This document shows positions 5,451-58,428 of a stretch of 64,000 nucleotides of DNA, in pieces (the stretch's first letter is position 1; every line of letters begins with the position of its first letter). The stretch is from positions 1-64,000 of the forward strand of contig JAKPDK010000121.1 of assembly GCA_029552745.1 (NCBI GenBank). The letters run 5' to 3'. The DNA is from Candidatus Hydrogenedentota bacterium (lineage in GTDB: Bacteria > Hydrogenedentota > Hydrogenedentia > Hydrogenedentales > SLHB01). Under the pieces are notes generated by a model. That model saw only the letters and a program-made list of their open reading frames with translations. It was not told the origin of the DNA and did no database searches. A program made the position numbers and the translations under genes.

Positions 5451-7217
5451 TCAGTCGACAAGCAGAGCAGGATACCATTTCCTCACTGAGTTAATGAGCC
5501 ATACGGCACGTGCTTTTTCTAAATCATTTTGTGTTAAGACTGTTTCTTGGATTATGCCCCGCTTGAGCAGATATTCTCGAAATGTACCCGGCAGTAATCC
5601 GCATTCAACGGGTGGGGTAAAGTAGCCTGTGTCAGTTGCCAAAACGATGTTAGCTATACTTGCCTCCGTGATTTCTTCTTTCGTATTGACCAATATGACC
5701 TCGTCGCAGTCAGGACGACTCCGCAGGGCGTCCTCATATATGGTTCTATTTGTGGTTTTGTGGTATAGAAAAACGTTGTTGGGTTCGACGCGAATTCTTG
5801 ACAAACCTACGCGTGGTATCTTTGGGGCACGCAATGGTTCTATATCAATACTTACATTGCCTTTCTGGGAAAGACGCAATCTCACTTTGCTTTTGCATTT
5901 TGTCTGTTTAAGGTTCTTCTCCGTAATCCGCAACGCGTCAGAGATTCTTTTTTCGTCGTAGGAGAAGCCGAAATATCGCGCGCTTTCGCTCAGTCTGGCT
6001 AAGTGAAGTTCCAGCAAGAAAAAGCCGTCGTCATAGAGCATTGTTTCCAAAAGTTCGAATTCCGGGTGTTTTAACGTCAAAAACCTTGCCTTCACCATAC
6101 ACTCTTCATATTCAGCGGTCTCTGAAGAGTCCCAGGTTATTCCCCCTCCCACTCCAAAACGAACAACCTGCTTGTCCATTTCGACTACCGCTGTGCGTAT
6201 AGCCACGTTGAATCGAGCACGACGGTTGGGGGCATACCACCCCACGGCTCCGCAGTAGACGCCACGAGGAAAAGGTTCCAGAGTCTTCGCCACTTTCGTC
6301 ATCTGGATCTTCGGAGCACCGGTCACGGATCCGCATGGAAACAACGCCTTAAATATATCCAATAGAGATACTGAGGTGGTTGCCTCAATCGTGGAAGTCA
6401 TTTGCCATACCGTAGGATATCGTTCTATGTCAAAAAGACTCGTTACTTTCACCGAGCCGATGTCCGCAATGCGTCCGAGGTCGTTTCGGATCAGATCAAC
6501 GATCATCAGGTTTTCGGCTTTATCTTTTTCTGAAGCTGCCAATTCGTTTGCTAGCTGGAGGTCATCACGTAGGCGCAACCCGCGCGGTCTTGTTCCTTTC
6601 ATCGGTTTTACTCGAATCTGATTCTCTGAGAGTTCGAAAAACAGCTCCGGTGAGAGAGAAAGGACGTGGTACTTTCCGGCATTAATAAATGCCGCATATT
6701 CGCTTTGTTGCGCCTTTGCCAGCTGAATAAAAAAACCAAGTGAGTCGCCATGAAAATGCGCTTCGATCGGAAACGTGTAGTTTACCTGATATACGTCACC
6801 AGCGCCTATATGGGCGCGAATCCTTTGTACGGCACTTTTGTATGAACTTTCCTTGATCAAAGCACGCCACTCCCCGATGGAATGCGTGGTTTTGGGAGGA
6901 GAAAGGAGATCTATTTGCCTGGGTGGTTTGTATAAACCAAACCAGAGGAGAGGTACGCCGTGGAGTTCATGCATCTCGAGCGCGGGTTCAAATGCTCGAC
7001 CTGCCTCATAAGCGACAAAACCGGCTGCCCATAGGTCTTTTTGCCCGACCGCGCATTCAACTTGGCGAAAGCAAGGGATGACATCATCAAGGCAACGGGC
7101 AGAGATGACTTCTACGGGATCAGAGAATAAAAGGACATTGCTACGAGAAAGGAACAGTGCCGTGCCATAAGTGTTTTCTGGAAAATTTTCCGCCGTTTTG
7201 TTGTCAAACTTCACCAT
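5451..7217 (-). CDS. pabB: Fused aminodeoxychorismate synthase component I / aminodeoxychorismate lyase (PabB-PabC)
   Basis: 588 residues in two domains. The N-terminal chorismate-binding part (about 1-350) has MKGTRPRG, DLIRNDLGRI and GSVTGAPKIQM, the PabB catalytic blocks that make 4-amino-4-deoxychorismate. The C-terminal part (about 380-588) is a PLP fold-type IV aminotransferase-like domain with FLYHKTTNR carrying the Schiff-base Lys, and EITEASIANI. Together they make p-aminobenzoate for folate. The fusion is known in several phyla. It is the last gene of the infC-led operon; the amidotransferase partner PabA is not in the window. Confidence 0.92.
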   Translation of the reverse strand: MVKFDNKTAENFPENTYGTALFLSRSNVLLFSDPVEVISARCLDDVIPCFRQVECAVGQKDLWAAGFVAYEAGRAFEPALEMHELHGVPLLWFGLYKPPRQIDLLSPPKTTHSIGEWRALIKESSYKSAVQRIRAHIGAGDVYQVNYTFPIEAHFHGDSLGFFIQLAKAQQSEYAAFINAGKYHVLSLSPELFFELSENQIRVKPMKGTRPRGLRLRDDLQLANELAASEKDKAENLMIVDLIRNDLGRIADIGSVKVTSLFDIERYPTVWQMTSTIEATTSVSLLDIFKALFPCGSVTGAPKIQMTKVAKTLEPFPRGVYCGAVGWYAPNRRARFNVAIRTAVVEMDKQVVRFGVGGGITWDSSETAEYEECMVKARFLTLKHPEFELLETMLYDDGFFLLELHLARLSESARYFGFSYDEKRISDALRITEKNLKQTKCKSKVRLRLSQKGNVSIDIEPLRAPKIPRVGLSRIRVEPNNVFLYHKTTNRTIYEDALRSRPDCDEVILVNTKEEITEASIANIVLATDTGYFTPPVECGLLPGTFREYLLKRGIIQETVLTQNDLEKARAVWLINSVRKWYPALLVD

Positions 7218-7226
7218 TATTCTTGT

Positions 7227-8084
7227 TTAATGTCGAGATACTTGAAAAAGGTTCATAGCGTTCTCAGACGTTTGCCGTGCCAGCGTCTCAATAGGCAATT
7301 CCAGAAACTCGGCGACCCATGCTCCTGTGTGGCTGAGAAAAGCAGGTTCACATCGTTTACCTCGCACAGCCTGTGGCGCAAGATACGGACTATCCGTTTC
7401 GAGTAAAAGTCTCTCCAAGGGCACTTTTTTCAGCGCATTTCTTAAAGTATCTGCTTTCGGATAAGTGACATTACCGGCGAAAGATATGTACCAACCCTGC
7501 TGCAAGCACAGATCCAGCAGAGATTCATCACCTTGAAAGCAATGCATAACTCCACCTGGAAAAGATTCGGTTTGTTTCAGTACATTTGCCATTTCTTTGT
7601 GAGCATCACGGCAATGGACAATTAAGGGCAGTCGGAGTTCTTGAGCGAGAGCGACGTGCTCAAGAAAGGCCTGCTGTTGCAGTTCCAAGGAGGTTTTAGA
7701 AAAACGTGATAAGTCAAGGCCAGTCTCGCCGATCGCCACAACTTTTTCGTTGGATGCGAGTTGCTTAAGTTGTTCCCATGAGGTTTGCGTAATGAAATCC
7801 GCATGATAGGGATGAATGCCCACAGCCGCGTAAAACGTATCGTGAGCGAGACGCACAGCCGAAGCACTCGTCTCTAGTGTATCTCCGACGATAACTATTC
7901 CTGCAAGAATTTCCTTCGCACGTTTTAGGACATCTTGTCTGTCTATGTCGAAACAAGGGTCCTGAACATGACAATGCGAGTCAAAAAACAAGCAGAATCG
8001 GCTATCTTGAGAATTGACATTAACCATATTTTGAGAGGAGCTGTCTTGTCCAAACGTTTTGGGCAGCCTAAGGTTTTCTCTCAT
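7227..8084 (-). CDS. tatD: TatD family metal-dependent hydrolase
   Basis: 285 residues. The TIM-barrel metallohydrolase shows metal ligands in FFDSHCHVQD (HxH, residues about 33-43), GETGLDLSRF, PLIVHCRDA, MHCFQGD, and LLLETDSPYLAP. The family has DNase and related phosphodiesterase activities. The first 30 residues are a polar extension not seen in most homologues; an internal ATG at 8027 would remove 19 of them but has no visible SD. The start at 8084 overlaps the ricT stop by 17 bases, suggesting translational coupling. Confidence 0.88.
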   Translation of the reverse strand: MRENLRLPKTFGQDSSSQNMVNVNSQDSRFCLFFDSHCHVQDPCFDIDRQDVLKRAKEILAGIVIVGDTLETSASAVRLAHDTFYAAVGIHPYHADFITQTSWEQLKQLASNEKVVAIGETGLDLSRFSKTSLELQQQAFLEHVALAQELRLPLIVHCRDAHKEMANVLKQTESFPGGVMHCFQGDESLLDLCLQQGWYISFAGNVTYPKADTLRNALKKVPLERLLLETDSPYLAPQAVRGKRCEPAFLSHTGAWVAEFLELPIETLARQTSENAMNLFQVSRH

Positions 8085-9045
8085 TATTAGACATTGGTCT
8101 TTGGGACAAAGGAATATCCTTCTCGGTCAAAGCCTGCTGGGTTTCTGGGGAAGGAACAGCTGTTTCTGGTTTGGTGCAGGGCTCTCTCCCCAATCCGTGA
8201 CTTGTTTCTTGGCTCTCCAGCGTGTCTGATAAAAGTCGCGTGTCGTTGGAATCTTCCGCCACAAATTCAATGCTTTTCGCAGGCTCGACCGTTTCTTCGT
8301 CGAGAATGGGCACGTCATCCTCGTCACTATAAGCGGCGGAATCGGCAAGGGCAACCTCTTCCTCCCATTTTGGGAGTGGCTCTTCTGTTCTTTCCCGTTC
8401 CTTTTTGCTGGGGTAAAGATCATTCTCATAACCTAAACAGCACAAGAGGCGTCCGCATTGTCCGCTGATCTTTGCGGGATTTAGGGAAAGGTTTTGGCGC
8501 TTTGCCATTTTCATAGAGATGGGTTGAAACTCTTTGAGCCACGTGGAGCAACACAAAGTAAGTCCACATACGCCGATGCCCCCCACGATCCGTGCTTCAT
8601 CTCGGACGGGGATATGACGCAGTTCTATCCGCACGTGGAGTTCATGCGCTAATTGACGCACAAGTTCCCGGAAGTCCACCCGGTCGTCCGCCGTAAAATA
8701 AAACGTAATCCTATGACGGTCGAACGTATACTCCGCATCCACAAGTTTCATGGGGAGGCGACTTTCCTCGATCCTTTTCAGGCAGACTTCTCGTGCCTTT
8801 TTTTCTTCCACTTGGATCTGATGAAGTGTGCTGATGTCATTTGTTGTCGCTTTACGAACAAATTGCAGTGGAGCGCTGGCTTCCGTATCTTCATCACATG
8901 GCCGTGGTGGTACTACACATGTTCCGAATTCCAGTCCACGTTCGGAGCGAACAATACACGGGTCGTCTCGTTTTAGGTCTTCTATCTCACAAGAGCAGGG
9001 AAAAACTTGCGTCGGTTTTCGCAATCGGATATATGCGATCGGCAT
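8068..9045 (-). CDS. ricT: PSP1 domain protein RicT/YaaT
   Basis: 325 residues. The PSP1 C-terminal homology region occupies roughly residues 40-210 and includes the cysteine-rich segments GVCGLTLCC and GQCGRLLCCLGYE, ligands known in RicT for Fe-S clusters in the Y-complex that guides RNase Y-dependent RNA maturation in Bacillus. The last 100 residues are acidic and low-complexity, probably disordered. It sits between holB and tatD, the same neighbourhood as in Firmicutes (holB-yaaT). Confidence 0.88.
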   Translation of the reverse strand: MPIAYIRLRKPTQVFPCSCEIEDLKRDDPCIVRSERGLEFGTCVVPPRPCDEDTEASAPLQFVRKATTNDISTLHQIQVEEKKAREVCLKRIEESRLPMKLVDAEYTFDRHRITFYFTADDRVDFRELVRQLAHELHVRIELRHIPVRDEARIVGGIGVCGLTLCCSTWLKEFQPISMKMAKRQNLSLNPAKISGQCGRLLCCLGYENDLYPSKKERERTEEPLPKWEEEVALADSAAYSDEDDVPILDEETVEPAKSIEFVAEDSNDTRLLSDTLESQETSHGLGREPCTKPETAVPSPETQQALTEKDIPLSQRPMSNNERKP

Positions 9046-9080: not shown

Positions 9081-10175
9081 CTATTGTTTTGCGGCTAGGT
9101 CAAAAAAAAGGTTCCGGAAAACACGTTCCTCGTTCATTTGTCGCTCTAGATATTCACGCGCTGTCTCTATTGCTCGAATGCATGAGTTAGGATCGCTGGA
9201 GGCTTGGGCGGTCAGATTGTCTTTCTGATCTTTGTTAAAGATCTTTGATGCGTCTCCCAACGTTTGCAGAACAAGTTCATCTCGGTACCAGGTCTCCAAT
9301 AAATAGAGATACTGCATCAGCGTGCGCCGATAGGCGGCATCAATAAATGCCATTCTTTCTTCTTTTAGACTTTCTTTTTCGTCTGGGGATAACGCCTGTT
9401 CTTCTACTGTATCCAGCTCCGATTCTATTTCTGCTTCAATGATCTTACGTTGATCATTGAGTACTTGAGTAAACTCTCGCGCCAACTCTAATGGGTCTGC
9501 CTTTTGTTTGACTTTTCTTATGATTTCCAACGCAAGTGTTCTTCTTTCCGTGTCGGCAAGTTCCAGAGCACGGGTAATCTGGCCTTGTGCCAGCGCCGCA
9601 ATAGATAAAGCGGTTTCGCTTGGCATTTGTCGAGTTGTCATTAAGATGTCTGCGACAGTCTCTGTGCGCAGTATTCGAAATCGGATAGATTGGCACCGTG
9701 ACCGTATTGTTGCAAAGAGCAAGCCCGGATACTCGGAGGTCAATATAAATGTGCATTTTCCGGGCGGTTCTTCTAACGTCTTTAAGAATTTGTGTTGTGC
9801 TGCAGCGGTCAATCGGTCGGCATCTTGAAGTATAAATACTCTTCTATCGCCTTCAATGGGTGATAACGCGGCCAATTCCTGTATCTCTTCTATTGCCTCT
9901 ACCGCTATTGTTCTCGATTTTTTAACGGGTACAACGTAGCGAACGTCGGCGTGCGTTCCCTTTTCGATCTTGCTACAGGAAATGCAGGTGTCGCAGGAAT
10001 CTGTGCCGCCTTGATTTTTGCAATAAAGTGTCTTGGCGAGTTCCTTGGCTGTCGTCAGTTTCCCCACGCCTTCCGGCCCCCAAAACAAGAGCGCATGGGG
10101 AAATCTGCCCTGCGATAGCAGCCGCCGGATTAACTTTATAGCAAATTCTTGATCTTTTATGCGGGAGAAACTCAT
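9081..10175 (-). CDS. holB: DNA polymerase III delta' subunit
   Basis: 364 residues; clamp-loader AAA+ ATPase subunit. Walker A-like GPEGVGKLTTAKEL is near residue 33, followed by a zinc module of four Cys (CDTCISC plus YC upstream). FILQDADRLTAAAQHKFLKTLEEPP is the Walker B/sensor region and IRSRCQSIRF the SRC motif. The C-terminal collar is highly charged. It lies 18 bases downstream of tmk, the common tmk-holB order. Confidence 0.93.
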   Translation of the reverse strand: MSFSRIKDQEFAIKLIRRLLSQGRFPHALLFWGPEGVGKLTTAKELAKTLYCKNQGGTDSCDTCISCSKIEKGTHADVRYVVPVKKSRTIAVEAIEEIQELAALSPIEGDRRVFILQDADRLTAAAQHKFLKTLEEPPGKCTFILTSEYPGLLFATIRSRCQSIRFRILRTETVADILMTTRQMPSETALSIAALAQGQITRALELADTERRTLALEIIRKVKQKADPLELAREFTQVLNDQRKIIEAEIESELDTVEEQALSPDEKESLKEERMAFIDAAYRRTLMQYLYLLETWYRDELVLQTLGDASKIFNKDQKDNLTAQASSDPNSCIRAIETAREYLERQMNEERVFRNLFFDLAAKQ

Positions 10176-10193: not shown

Positions 10194-10835
10194 TCATTCG
10201 CCCGATAGATTAGCTGGGCTTAACAATGGCTTTATTAGATTGAAAATATCCTCTGCGATTACCGGAGGAGATTTACAACCATCTACTATCTTAACACGGT
10301 TTGGTTCTTTTTGTGACAGTTCAATGAAGCTTTTTCTTACTTTTTCGTGGAATGACTCAGGTTCTTGCTCGATGCGATCAGGTTTTCCGCATTTCCCTAT
10401 CCGCGTTAGACCCTCTTTGACCGGTACATCCAGGACGATCGTCATGTCAGGCCAGACATCTCGTGTCGCAATTCTATGTAAGACCTGAACGGTTTCTATA
10501 TCGATGCTGCGTCCCGCCCCTTGGTAGGCTGTGGTCGAGTCGACGAACCGATCTGAAATGACTACTGCGCCGGATTCGAGCGCCGGGCGTATCACCTCGT
10601 CCACATGTTGAGCCCGCGCAGCTTCATATAACAGAAGTTCTGTCATAGGGGAGATTTCACGGTTGTTATCGTCCAGCAGTATTTTGCGTATAATTTCAGC
10701 GATACGAGAACCGCCTGGTTCGCGAGTAGCCAGAACCCTGTACTTAAGATTCTCCAAGCGACTTTTCAAAAACTGAACCTGCGTCGTTTTGCCACTCCCC
10801 TCGATACCCTCTAATGTGATGAACACGCCCTTCAT
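10194..10835 (-). CDS. tmk: Thymidylate kinase
   Basis: 213 residues. It phosphorylates dTMP to dTDP. P-loop GIEGSGKTTQVQFLKSR is at the N-terminus, TREPGG near residue 38, and the DR motif SDRFVDSTTAYQGAGR near residue 93. The start overlaps the tyrA stop by 4 bases (ATGA), so the two are translationally coupled. Confidence 0.95.
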   Translation of the reverse strand: MKGVFITLEGIEGSGKTTQVQFLKSRLENLKYRVLATREPGGSRIAEIIRKILLDDNNREISPMTELLLYEAARAQHVDEVIRPALESGAVVISDRFVDSTTAYQGAGRSIDIETVQVLHRIATRDVWPDMTIVLDVPVKEGLTRIGKCGKPDRIEQEPESFHEKVRKSFIELSQKEPNRVKIVDGCKSPPVIAEDIFNLIKPLLSPANLSGE

Positions 10836-11689
10836 TTGTCGAGCACTCGTTTGCGATTTTCTTGAGCTTGTTCAAAAAATGTTTCCAACCCGCGCGCATC
10901 TCGCTCTTCAACCAGCTGAAGAATCCTGGTCATTTTTTCTTGGAAAGCAATTAGGCCTCTGGCGATGGCTTCCGGATTTGTCAGGCAAATGTCTCTCCAT
11001 AATTCAGCGCGTCCTGCAGCGACGCGGGTCGTGTCCCGAAAACCACTTCCTATCATAGGTCGAACATGACAATCAGGATCTATCAGCAGGGCGAGACAAG
11101 CTGCAACGATATGCGGGACGTGGCTAGTTCGGGCAAGGATTTCATCGTGTTGTTCCGGGGGCAATTCAAACACCTTGGACCCGACGGCTTTCCAGAGGTC
11201 ACAAACGGTGCGGTGGGCGTCGCTCGCGTGGAAACTCTCTTTTTTTTCGACGATGACAACACTTCCGTTGTACAGGTTTCCCGTGGCATGTTCCGCCCCA
11301 TACTTTTCTGATCCAGCCATCGGATGACTTCCGATGAATCTCAAGGGAGATGGCCAAGTTTTTCTTGCGTGTTGGCATATTGCAGACTTTGTACTAGCAA
11401 CATCGGTGACAACGAGGTCTGGTCTGCAATGGGGATGAATTTCGTCCAGTTCAGCGACAACCGAATTTGCGGGTGTGCAGAGCACAATTAGGTCGGCATC
11501 TTTTACTGCTTTTTTCAAGTCGAGAAAGGACTCATCTATTGCGCCTCGGGCTAAAGCCACGTCCAAAGAATTCTGACGACGCCCTACGCCTCTGACTGTT
11601 CTGGCAATCCCACGTTCCTTGAGTGCAAGACCTAACGATCCCCCGAGTAACCCCACTCCAACGATAGTTGCCACTTGGAACTCTTTCAT
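10832..11689 (-). CDS. tyrA: Prephenate dehydrogenase
   Basis: 285 residues; NAD-dependent conversion of prephenate to 4-hydroxyphenylpyruvate in tyrosine synthesis. The Rossmann loop VGVGLLGGSLGLALKERG is at residues 10-27, and GSHPMAGSEKYGAEHA near 120 holds the catalytic His. There is no chorismate mutase or ACT domain, so this is the monofunctional form. It overlaps hisA by 4 bases. Confidence 0.93.
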   Translation of the reverse strand: MKEFQVATIVGVGLLGGSLGLALKERGIARTVRGVGRRQNSLDVALARGAIDESFLDLKKAVKDADLIVLCTPANSVVAELDEIHPHCRPDLVVTDVASTKSAICQHARKTWPSPLRFIGSHPMAGSEKYGAEHATGNLYNGSVVIVEKKESFHASDAHRTVCDLWKAVGSKVFELPPEQHDEILARTSHVPHIVAACLALLIDPDCHVRPMIGSGFRDTTRVAAGRAELWRDICLTNPEAIARGLIAFQEKMTRILQLVEERDARGLETFFEQAQENRKRVLDK

Positions 11690-12432
11690 AAGTCTGGACG
11701 AGTAGCCTCCAAAGCCTGGCTCAAGGTAAATGCCCCTACATATAAAGCGCGTCCAACGATGATTTCATCCACAACTCCCCCACTTCTACGTATTTCCTGT
11801 TCCAGCAGAGTTGCAGTGCGAATATCTCCTAACGAGGAGACACCCCCTGAAAGGGTAACCGGGATTTTTAATGCAGTTGCCATCTTTCGCGCCGCCTCGA
11901 AATTCGGTCCTTGCAACATGCCGTCCCGACCGATATCTGTATAGATAATACGGCTGACCCCTGCCTTTTCAACAAATTCGGCAAACTCCAACGCATCGGT
12001 ATCGGTAAGCTCTGTCCAACCACTAAGGGCCACTCGTCCCTCTCTGGCATCGATGCCCACGACGATTCTTCCTGGGAAACATGCAGCAGCCTCTTTTACT
12101 AGGTTGGGGTCTCTGTATGCGGCGGTTCCCAGGATCACACGTTCCGCTCCGAGTCCGACGGCTTCTTGGATAGTGGCCATTGTGCGAATGCCACCCCCCA
12201 CTTCAAAGCGAACCTTTTTGCTCGCCAATTCTTCTAGAATGGGTCCAACACACAACTTACCTTGTTTGGCTCCATCAAGGTCAACAAGGTGTATAAGGTC
12301 TGCACCTTGATTGACCCATTCCAAAGTCTGGGCAATCGGGTCGTTTGAAAACACAGTTTCGCGGTCAAAATCCCCTTGCACCAGGTTGACGCACAGGCCG
12401 CCGCGGATGTCTACCGCGGGTATGACCCGCAT
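11686..12432 (-). CDS. hisA: Phosphoribosylformimino-5-aminoimidazole carboxamide ribotide isomerase
   Basis: 248 residues; TIM-barrel isomerase of histidine synthesis. Catalytic Asp is in VIPAVDIRGG near residue 8 and the second in YTDIGRDGM near 130; phosphate-binding loops read EVGGGIR and LSGGVSS. It starts two bases after the rplT stop with no SD of its own, so its translation probably depends on ribosomes leaving rplT. The other his genes seen here, hisH and hisF, are 39 kb away. Confidence 0.95.
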   Translation of the reverse strand: MRVIPAVDIRGGLCVNLVQGDFDRETVFSNDPIAQTLEWVNQGADLIHLVDLDGAKQGKLCVGPILEELASKKVRFEVGGGIRTMATIQEAVGLGAERVILGTAAYRDPNLVKEAAACFPGRIVVGIDAREGRVALSGWTELTDTDALEFAEFVEKAGVSRIIYTDIGRDGMLQGPNFEAARKMATALKIPVTLSGGVSSLGDIRTATLLEQEIRRSGGVVDEIIVGRALYVGAFTLSQALEATRPDL

Positions 12433-13016: not shown

Positions 13017-13154
13017 ATTTACTCTCCTTAGTATCTGAGGTTCTGGGGAACATTTTCACAATTCTAGCGTTGCTCACGAGCATTAAGCCTTGTCGAAGAA
13101 AACATCCCTTTCTGTTTCCCGAAAAGAATGAAAGAAACGTTGGGTCTACTGTAC

Positions 13155-13682
13155 TTATTTAGACGGGGACAGAACGATACTCATGGTCCGTCCCTCAAGT
13201 TTCACGTTATTTACGTCGATTTGTTCCTGATGAAGGTCTTTTGTACCTTCAAGTACACGAGCAAGAACTTCGCGGCCAAATTCGGGATGTGCCGTTTCTC
13301 GCCCTCGGAACATGACGGTCACTTTAACTTTGTTTCCTTCTTGCAAGAATTCTCGAACATGATTTGTCTTGAACGTAAAGTCATGAATATCGATCTTGGG
13401 ACGATACTTGACTTCTTTTACGACAACAGCGTGCTGATGTTTTTTGGATTCTTTGGCCCGTTTGCTTTGTTGGTACCTATACTTCCCATAGTCCATAATG
13501 CGGCAAACTGGCGGCGACGCACCTGGCGCCACTTCGACTAAGTCGAGACCTCTCCGTTCTGCTTCCGCAACGGCGTCTGCGGGGCTCATGATTCCCAATT
13601 GCACGCCATTTTCGTCGATGACCCGCACCTGCCTGGCGTGGATCATCTCGTTAACGCGAACCCGGTTATCTACCTTTGCGAT
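13155..13682 (-). CDS. infC: Translation initiation factor IF-3 (AUC start codon)
   Basis: 175 residues when started at the ATC at 13682-13680. IF-3 binds the 30S subunit and discriminates start codons. The family N-terminus reads NRVRVNEMIHARQVRVIDENG across the first internal ATG (13646), so that ATG lies within the conserved part. Upstream in frame the only codons before a TGA are AGC and ATC, and a perfect AGGAGG (13696-13691) is 8 bases from the ATC. A non-AUG start is the known hallmark of infC autoregulation (AUU in E. coli). First gene of a ten-gene operon. Confidence 0.93.
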   Translation of the reverse strand: MAKVDNRVRVNEMIHARQVRVIDENGVQLGIMSPADAVAEAERRGLDLVEVAPGASPPVCRIMDYGKYRYQQSKRAKESKKHQHAVVVKEVKYRPKIDIHDFTFKTNHVREFLQEGNKVKVTVMFRGRETAHPEFGREVLARVLEGTKDLHQEQIDVNNVKLEGRTMSIVLSPSK

Positions 13683-13759: not shown

Positions 13760-13794
13760 AAAAAACGCGACGGAAACTCTCTGCTTCCGTCGCG
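13760..13794 (-). terminator. Intrinsic terminator in the infC leader (attenuator)
   Basis: On the minus strand CGCGACGGAA (13794-13785) pairs perfectly with TTCCGTCGCG (13775-13766) across a 9-base loop and is followed directly by six T (13765-13760). It lies about 80 bases upstream of the infC start and downstream of a plausible promoter, so it would stop transcription before the operon. A second arrangement (see 13874-13889) can disrupt it. Confidence 0.8.
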
Positions 13795-13873
13795 GAAACT
13801 CACCAAAGGAGCTTTTCGGATAATGCGCTTCCAGCGCTACCCTGCAAACAGGTATCATAACCGCAGCAAGGTG

Positions 13874-13889
13874 AGAAGCAGAGGCTTCT
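13874..13889 (-). promoter_or_regulatory. Anti-antiterminator / antiterminator segment of infC leader
   Basis: On the minus strand AGAAGC-CTCT-GCTTCT can form a 6-bp hairpin. Alternatively its 3' half, CTCTGCTTC (13883-13875), pairs perfectly over 9 bases with GAAGCAGAG (13787-13779), which belongs to the 5' stem and loop of the terminator. The two folds exclude each other, as in classical attenuators. L20 or IF-3 as the ligand is inference from characterised infC operons. Confidence 0.6.
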
Positions 13890-13918
13890 TCTTAGATAAT
13901 CCACATTCAATGTACTAA

Positions 13919-13948
13919 AGAGTAGCATGACTACAGGGTGTAAGTCAA
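13919..13948 (-). promoter_or_regulatory. infC: Candidate sigma-70 promoter of the infC operon
   Basis: Minus-strand TTGACT (-35, 13948-13943) and TACTCT (-10, 13924-13919) with an 18-base spacer. It would give a leader of about 230 bases that contains the attenuator. No experimental support. Confidence 0.5.
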
Positions 13949-14042
13949 TCTCACCGAACACTCACTGAGCATCTCTTGGGAAACCTTCCCAAGAAGTGTT
14001 TGCTTCTAACGTATGGTGTAAAATTTAGAAAAGGAGAACTAC

Positions 14043-14426
14043 ATGGTTTTCTCTTACAAGAAATCGGTTGGGACAATATTAAGCTTAGCCATTGTTTTAC
14101 TTACACTGGGATGCACCATTGGCGGGCCTCGTCATTCAGCTGCTTTCACGGATGAATGGATGAGGAGCCGATCATCAGAAAAGAGAAATAGTTTGGCTGC
14201 CCAAGAAGAAGAAATAACTCTCTTAGGGAAGCCCGGTGGGCCAAGAGCCTACGTATACCGAGACGAAAAAGGTAGTCCTCAACTCGCCATAGGTGGTTCA
14301 GGAGGATTAAGCGCCGACGTTCGGGTTGATGATGGCTCTCCTGAGGTCAAGTTAAAGTACAAAATCGGTATTGGGGGTAAGAAACAAAACCTAAGAGAGA
14401 CTCTGCCCAAAGAAACAAAACCATAA
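14043..14426 (+). CDS. Small lipoprotein of unknown function
   Basis: 127 residues with a clear signal peptide ending in lipobox LTLGC (Cys 28), so exported and lipidated. The mature part is hydrophilic and Gly/Lys rich with GKPGGPRAYVYRDEKGSPQLAIGGSGG; no family recognised. The SD AAAGGAG lies 7 bases before ATG. It is transcribed away from infC; the shared upstream region is about 360 bases. Confidence 0.8.
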   Translation: MVFSYKKSVGTILSLAIVLLTLGCTIGGPRHSAAFTDEWMRSRSSEKRNSLAAQEEEITLLGKPGGPRAYVYRDEKGSPQLAIGGSGGLSADVRVDDGSPEVKLKYKIGIGGKKQNLRETLPKETKP

Positions 14427-51053: not shown

Positions 51054-51830
51054 TCACCATTTTTTCCTGACTGGGACCCCCGCTTTGTCCAGCTCTTCTT
51101 TGATTTGTTGGATGGTATAGTGTCCCATGTGCACCATACTGGCCACAATAGCGGCATCTGCGAGGGCTTTTTGAAAAACATCAATCAAATGTTGAGGGGT
51201 GCCGGCGCCGCCCGAAGCAACTACGGGTACGCTCACTGCTTCTGCAACCAGCCTGGTTAGGACAAGTTCATAGCCTTCACGTGTGCCGTCGGCATCCACC
51301 GAGTTTACAACAATCTCCCCCACTCCCAGATCAACTGCCCGTTTTGCCCACTCGATTGCGTCTATACCGGTTCGTTGCCGAAATCCTCGGGTTGTAATTT
51401 CGTAACCGCTGGGGCAACGTGGGTCATCTGTTCGAACGGGGTCCATGCCCAATACAATGCACTGTCTCCCAAATTGTCGCGCTCCATCAGAGATGATTTC
51501 TGGATGCTCCACCGCAAGTGTATTTACGGACACTTTTTCGGCTCCAGCCCACAACACGTCATACATATCCTGAAGGTTGCGAATGCCGCCACCGACAGCA
51601 AAAGGTATTCGTACTGCTCGCCCGACTTCTTTGACCATATCTAAATCGATGCGTCTACCTTCCGCCGATGCCGTAATGTCGTAAAAGACCAGCTCGTCGC
51701 AACCGCCCTCACTGTAGGCAACTGCCATTTCAACCGGATCTCCCAAATCAACATTATTTTGAAATCGGATACCCTTCGTGACTTTCCGATTTCTGACATC
51801 CAAGCAAGGTATGATTCGTTTTCTTAACAT
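51054..51830 (-). CDS. hisF: Imidazole glycerol phosphate synthase cyclase subunit
   Basis: 258 residues from ATG 51830, which gives the canonical MLRKRIIPCLDV; an upstream ATG at 51848 adds six residues. TIM barrel with catalytic Asp in CLDV and in NSVDADGT, plus phosphate loops AVGGGIRN and VVASGGAGTP. Works with HisH, whose gene overlaps it by 7 bases. Confidence 0.95.
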   Translation of the reverse strand: MLRKRIIPCLDVRNRKVTKGIRFQNNVDLGDPVEMAVAYSEGGCDELVFYDITASAEGRRIDLDMVKEVGRAVRIPFAVGGGIRNLQDMYDVLWAGAEKVSVNTLAVEHPEIISDGARQFGRQCIVLGMDPVRTDDPRCPSGYEITTRGFRQRTGIDAIEWAKRAVDLGVGEIVVNSVDADGTREGYELVLTRLVAEAVSVPVVASGGAGTPQHLIDVFQKALADAAIVASMVHMGHYTIQQIKEELDKAGVPVRKKW

Positions 51831-57426: not shown

Positions 57427-57805
57427 GAGGCAAGCAAGTTGGACGGCCGCGCCGTACACTTGGAACGGTGAGGAAAGTCCGAGCTCCACAGGGCACAGCG
57501 CTTCCTAACGGGAAGGCGGGGTGACCCGACGGAAAGTGGCACAGAAACGACACAGCCTATGTCAATCTTCGGATTGGCAGGCAATGGTGAAAAGGTGCGG
57601 TAAGAGCGCACCAGCGGCTTGGTGACAAGTCGGCTGGCTAAACCCCGCTGGGAGCAATGCCGAATAGGGACGCCAAGACGTGGCCCGCGTCGCGTCCGGG
57701 TTGGCAGCTGGAGACACAGGGCGACCTGTGTCCTAGAGTAATGGCCGTCTCGGAGTGCTGGAACGCACTCTACGACAGAACTCGGCTTACAGACTTGCTT
57801 GCCTC
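57427..57805 (+). ncRNA. rnpB: RNase P RNA, bacterial class A
   Basis: 379 bases. GAGGCAAGCAAGT at the 5' end pairs with ACTTGCTTGCCTC at the 3' end as a 13-bp helix P1. The universal core is present: GAGGAAAGTCCGAGCTCC (CR I), ACAGGGCACAG, AGAGTAATGG (CR IV) and ACAGAACTCGGCTTACAG (CR V). It matures tRNA 5' ends. It is divergent from the sialidase gene. Protein-like frames on the opposite strand here are artefacts. Confidence 0.95.
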
Positions 57806-58352: not shown

Positions 58353-58428
58353 TCCGCGGTAGCTCAGTCGGTAGAGCGGGTGGCTGTTAACCACTTGGCC
58401 GCAGGTTCGAGTCCTGCCCGCGGAGCCA
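58353..58428 (+). tRNA. tRNA-Asn (GTT)
   Basis: 76 bases with encoded CCA. Acceptor TCCGCGG/CCGCGGA, D-arm AGCTCAGTCGGTAGAGC, anticodon loop CTGTTAA with GTT at 58386-58388, T-arm GCAGGTTCGAGTCCTGC. The DNA beyond its 3' end changes abruptly in composition, so this tRNA may have been an integration site. Confidence 0.97.

Follow-up and report, generated by a model that had tools for sequence, protein, structure and literature searches.

The infC locus

The window, that is, the whole stretch of 64,000 nucleotides that was analysed, carries on its minus strand the genes infC (IF3; 13155-13682), rpmI (L35; 12819-13016) and rplT (L20; 12435-12794), followed by hisA (11686-12432), a tyrA-like prephenate/arogenate dehydrogenase gene (10832-11689), tmk (dTMP kinase; 10194-10835), holB (DNA polymerase III delta'; 9081-10175), ricT (8068-9045), a tatD-family nuclease gene (7227-8084) and finally pabB with a class-IV aminotransferase domain at its C-terminal end (pabBC; 5451-7217), which closes the run and is followed by a terminator-like site at 5381-5364. 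The hisA gene is the sole match in the genome over the hisA cut-off, the next match (51111-51815) being hisF-like. The genome belongs to Candidatus Hydrogenedentota; the window's IF3 is most similar to proteins from other genomes of this group (67-72% identical), and those in the next phyla are less than 60% identical.

It was found that infC begins with an AUC codon (13682-13680) eight nucleotides after AGGAGG (13696-13691), a start that an earlier annotation of this DNA (the sequence-only reading) had overlooked. When the window was compared with 60 relatives, giving 61 infC loci, the start was AUC in 43, AUA in 16 and AUU in 1 (60/61 in all), and IF3 self-control by start-codon discrimination has probably been kept throughout the phylum. 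The 138-nt gap between infC and rpmI contains a hairpin followed by TTTTCTTC (13103-13130), and T-runs are present there in L123, L128, L133, L134 and L138. This hairpin may act as an additional, partial terminator by which IF3 is set against L35/L20; a search of the gap for a second conserved regulatory element gave no Rfam match, and inspection by eye showed no structure that was obviously shared.

Between the infC promoter and a divergent open reading frame on the plus strand (14043-14426), the start of which resembles a lipoprotein signal and which has no Pfam match, lies a nine-pair inverted repeat, TCTTGGGAAACCTTCCCAAGA (13974-13994). Elsewhere in the window are a bacterial class A RNase P RNA (57431-57805, plus strand, 314.5 bits) and, after it, a tRNA (58353-58425).

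Elements of the leader

The leader of infC occupies positions 13948 to 13760 of the minus strand and contains, in this order, a promoter, a short 5' stretch, AAG, a hairpin that we call P1, CACC, a second domain P2, a variable stretch and an intrinsic terminator. The promoter (13919-13948) has the -35 sequence TTGACT (13948-13943) and the -10 sequence TACTCT (13924-13919) with an 18-nt spacer, in which TGC ahead of the -10 sequence forms a TGn extension, and the predicted start is near 13912. P1, the anti-antiterminator (13874-13889), is the 6-bp hairpin AGAAGC(CUCU)GCUUCU with the conserved AAG just 5' of it. P2 (13839-13872), the putative L20-binding domain, is formed by pairing of ACCUUGC (13872-13866) with GCAGGGU (13845-13839) around an inner hairpin, and it carries the ACC:GGU closing pairs typical of an L20-binding site. 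The terminator (13760-13794) consists of the stem-loop CGCGACGGAAGC(AGAGA)GUUUCCGUCGCG (13794-13766), with a 12-pair stem, of which the 10 outer pairs are Watson-Crick, a 5-nt loop and U6.

The antiterminator is formed by CUCUGCUUC (13875-13883), which is the loop and 3' strand of P1, and GAAGCAGAG (13779-13787), which is the inner 5' strand and loop of the terminator. These strands make nine Watson-Crick pairs and one U.G pair, and the resulting 9-10-nt antiterminator excludes both P1 and the terminator. Folding of transcripts of growing length showed P1 to be favoured up to 13785, the antiterminator to lead by about 5-6 kcal/mol from 13778 to 13772, and P1 plus the terminator to win once the stem was complete; the whole leader had a folding z of -2.74. 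The promoter, the 6-bp hairpin before the terminator, the nine-base complementarity and the mutually exclusive pairings were thus found as the sequence-only reading had described them. Its perfect 10-bp terminator with T6 proved right in the T-run and short in the stem, and the attenuator that it called complete had its parts correctly given but left out P2 (13872-13839), with an invariant C-G pair.

Conservation and covariation in Hydrogenedentota

The element was found in 57 of the 61 infC loci, in the window and 55 relatives by a search for P1 and the terminator, and in L175 with R2, a covariance model built here from the leaders of the phylum; one spurious match of the first search, in L176, was taken out of the count. 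The recurrence in relatives on which the sequence-only reading had staked its proposal is therefore borne out. The loci without a leader (L176, L178, L179 and L180) belong to one AT-rich genus, and they keep the operon order and an infC gene with an AUA start. This genus has lost the leader, which is dispensable there, since the operon was kept without it.

An alignment of 56 leaders (A1) was used for the covariation analysis that had been proposed earlier, and both P1 and P2 were found to covary. Paired residues made up 95.8% of the cells in A1, as against 32-51% when one strand was slid by 1-3 columns, and there were 106 double-changed cells vs. 24.8 in shuffles, with double changes at 11 of 16 pairs. 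In P1, 98.5% of the cells were paired, and one pair was AU in 26 leaders and GC in 24; in P2, C27-G95 was present in 56/56 and C28-G94 in 53/56 leaders. On the IF3 protein tree the P1 and P2 pairs together required at least 57 changes of Watson-Crick pair type, and therefore the covariation does not represent one inherited change. A promoter with a TTG-type -35 and a TANNNT -10 sequence 17-18 nt apart precedes P1 by 8-47 nt in all 56 leaders, with a mean score of 10.0 vs. 2.65 in shuffles.

Specificity of the antiterminator pairing

The pairing of the P1 loop and 3' strand with the terminator 5' strand and loop was evaluated by computing duplex energies. Cognate duplexes averaged -13.0 kcal/mol, whereas duplexes swapped among species averaged -9.7 kcal/mol (sd 0.31), and none of 5000 permutations of the terminators over the 56 leaders was as good as the cognate arrangement. 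The window's P1 paired best with its own terminator in comparison to the 55 others, and the reverse was also true.

The signal was not uniform within the phylum. For the 42 leaders outside a family that we call f10, the cognate value was -15.1 vs. -11.7 kcal/mol for swapped pairs (0/5000), and in the fourteen leaders of f10 (L138, L141, L147, L150-L152, L154, L158, L160, L165-L167, L169 and L171) the P1-terminator pairing was weak on average and the cognate signal was no longer clear. Because this pairing has largely decayed in f10, the antiterminator part of the leader is not universal. The f10 terminators match P2, mostly its 3' strand (35/5000 swaps), a weaker result from a test devised after the sequences had been seen. 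In several f10 genomes the antiterminator partner has moved from P1 towards P2. As a general partner P2 was ruled out outside f10, where 1385 of 5000 swaps were equally good. Both the P1-based and the f10 P2-based designs use a strand that L20 bound to P1/P2 would lock.

The simplest competing explanation is a plain intrinsic terminator preceded by a hairpin that is complementary to it by chance, with no switch. The terminator is strong on its own, and nine or more pairs with P1 can arise by chance, although shuffling of its arm gave them in only 426 of 100,000 cases (about 0.4%). A chance match is further at odds with the covariation, with the swap test on the 56 leaders and with the conservation of the element both within the phylum and beyond it (see below), and we consider this explanation very improbable.

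Relation to the L20 leader family and the likely ligand

The Rfam L20_leader model RF00558 matched the leader over its full length with 39.2 bits (E 2.5e-6, E-value mode). This is below the gathering cut-off of 58.7 bits; at that threshold Rfam gave no match at the leader, and the cut-off was reached in 0 of 68 genomes of the phylum. The features that mark RF00558 members are nevertheless present, namely the conserved AAG, CACC and GG at the P1/P2 junction, an intrinsic terminator before infC that is excluded by an alternative pairing, and a location directly upstream of infC-rpmI-rplT. Recognition was reciprocal: R2 found the leader upstream of infC in L070 with 45.2 bits, where RF00558 scores 69.5 bits, and it also found those upstream of infC in L101 and L058. 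Within its own genome the leader is unique (58.7 bits, next match 15.5). Because it falls below the Rfam cut-off, we do not count it as a ready member and speak instead of an L20-type leader by which the family is widened; by its sequence features it is an attenuator of the L20 type lying beyond the boundary that Rfam now sets.

A search with R2 of infC regions outside the phylum (71 regions, 0.96 Mb, grouped by record title) gave 38 matches, of which 36 were just upstream of infC on the infC strand, some of the weakest (E 0.1-0.7) being recognised by position alone. They comprised 20 Bacillota and 16 Actinomycetota leaders, the latter including L080, L060, L059, L088, L071, L090, L107, L092, L062 and others. 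The cognate-antiterminator test gave 0/5000 for Bacillota (18 leaders) and, weakly, 47/5000 for Actinomycetota. RF00558 also matches a Cloacimonadota leader, and R2 had no match beside infC in the Gemmatimonadota, Nitrospirota, Deltaproteobacteria, Chloroflexi and Synergistales regions searched.

At the places that correspond to the E. coli 1000 and 1150 regions, the 23S rRNA encoded by this genome reads CUAAGGUCCC and CACCGAAG, and the AAG, ACC and GGU of the leader also occur in its H40/H41 region. L20 leaders have been reported to share two G-C pairs and an AA dimer (PMC7247131), with which the AAG and ACC:GGU of this leader are in line. The likeness to the 23S site is a sequence resemblance, compatible with L20 binding but no proof of it. 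It has to be weighed against the idea that the ligand on P1/P2 is IF3, L35 or an L35-L20 pair, given that all three proteins are encoded downstream, that IF3 autocontrol is known in E. coli, and that the non-AUG infC starts point to IF3 as a second controller of infC translation. The conserved core, however, is the RF00558 core with the two G-C pairs and AA dimer of L20 leaders (PMC7247131), and the same pairs and dimer are in 23S H40/H41, so that a ligand other than L20 alone seems unlikely. The L20-type attenuator that the sequence-only reading had proposed is thus supported by the sub-threshold full-model match, the P1/P2 covariation, the cognate-specific antiterminator and the same design in Bacillota.

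Probable extent of the operon

The order infC-rpmI-rplT-hisA-tyrA-tmk-holB-ricT-tatD was complete in 33 of the 39 loci with enough sequence. The rplT-hisA gap had a median of 2 nt and did not exceed 30 nt in 51 of 57 loci, with overlaps further down the operon. Strong sigma-70-like internal promoters were not found in the window's operon, and a search for conserved internal promoters found none, with leader-quality sites as rare in the sense as in the antisense direction (1 vs. 1 in 288 kb). Because the genes lie on the same strand with near-zero gaps and have no recognisable promoters of their own, the switch probably governs hisA to tatD, and here also pabBC. Co-transcription of infC with the downstream genes is likely, and one attenuator probably governs the 9-10-gene operon.

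A different view is that the L20-sensing attenuator is real but hisA and the genes after it are driven mainly by internal promoters, the ribosomal switch hardly affecting them. In six loci the rplT-hisA gap is 77-200 nt, one genus lost the leader while its operon stayed, and three loci of family f11 have different genes after hisA. The short gaps and the scarcity of internal promoter sites described above speak against this view, and although internal promoters of other types are possible, we regard it as a doubtful, if serious, alternative to control by the leader. The claim in the sequence-only reading that the downstream genes would come under ribosomal-protein control therefore holds for hisA to tatD as far as gene order, spacing and the lack of excess internal promoters go, and is weak for pabBC, since only nine of the scanned loci, counting the window, have this gene after tatD.

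Proposed mechanism and comparison with known systems

We interpret the 5' leader of the infC-rpmI-rplT operon, with a probability of roughly 85%, as a transcription attenuator of the L20 type that probably also sets the downstream genes. By analogy, it would work like the B. subtilis L20 leader, in which L20 control by way of a terminator stabilised by L20 is established (PMC6097659). As long as newly made 23S rRNA takes up the L20, the antiterminator would form between P1 (loop and 3' strand) and the inner part of the terminator (5' strand and loop), and the polymerase would read through. Free L20 would bind where P1 and P2 meet, at the AAG and ACC:GGU pairs that resemble the 23S site, and would keep P1 closed, freeing the terminator and stopping transcription near 13760. 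The switch would in this way set transcription of hisA, tyrA, tmk, holB, ricT, tatD and here pabBC too.

For the phylum as a whole, the proposal that one ribosomal-protein attenuator sets a 9-10-gene operon, that the switch is old and common to Bacillota, Actinomycetota and Hydrogenedentota, and that its antiterminator partner changed within the phylum has in our judgement an even chance of being correct. If true, the operon would join translation (IF3, L35 and L20) to histidine and tyrosine synthesis and to DNA replication (tmk and holB), with biosynthetic and replication genes sitting behind a ribosome-assembly signal. Such a natural rewiring of the antiterminator would be useful for studying the evolution of RNA switches.

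The B. subtilis-type L20 leader has been described as narrowly distributed to Firmicutes (PMC6097659). The presence of the switch in most of an uncultured phylum, and before infC in many Actinomycetota, suggests a greater age or mobility than has been described. The new findings are its occurrence in this phylum, a family in which the antiterminator partner has shifted, and the long conserved operon downstream.

Two other systems resemble the present leader in part. L20 control of rpmI-rplT in E. coli is likewise a feedback by L20 with mimicry of the 23S site (PMC10931766), but it is translational, lies inside the operon and uses a long-range pseudoknot, and infC is under IF3 control. The Deltaproteobacteria L20 leader motif has the same two conserved 23S-site parts, with two G-C pairs and an AA dimer, on another structural scaffold (PMC7247131).

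The closest known system is the Bacillota L20 leader (RF00558; B. subtilis infC-rpmI-rplT). As in that leader, the core AAG-P1-CUCACC-P2-GG lies before infC, the P1 loop and 3' strand are complementary to the terminator 5' strand, and the terminator forms while P1 is closed; B. subtilis infC also has a non-AUG start (ATT). The Hydrogenedentota leader differs in that it belongs to another phylum and falls below the RF00558 cut-off, that the antiterminator partner is in the inner stem and loop of the terminator, and that one family, f10, has a shifted pairing partner. Furthermore, the operon here runs on into hisA-tyrA-tmk-holB-ricT-tatD, whereas no hisA was found near rplT in any of the 71 loci from other phyla.
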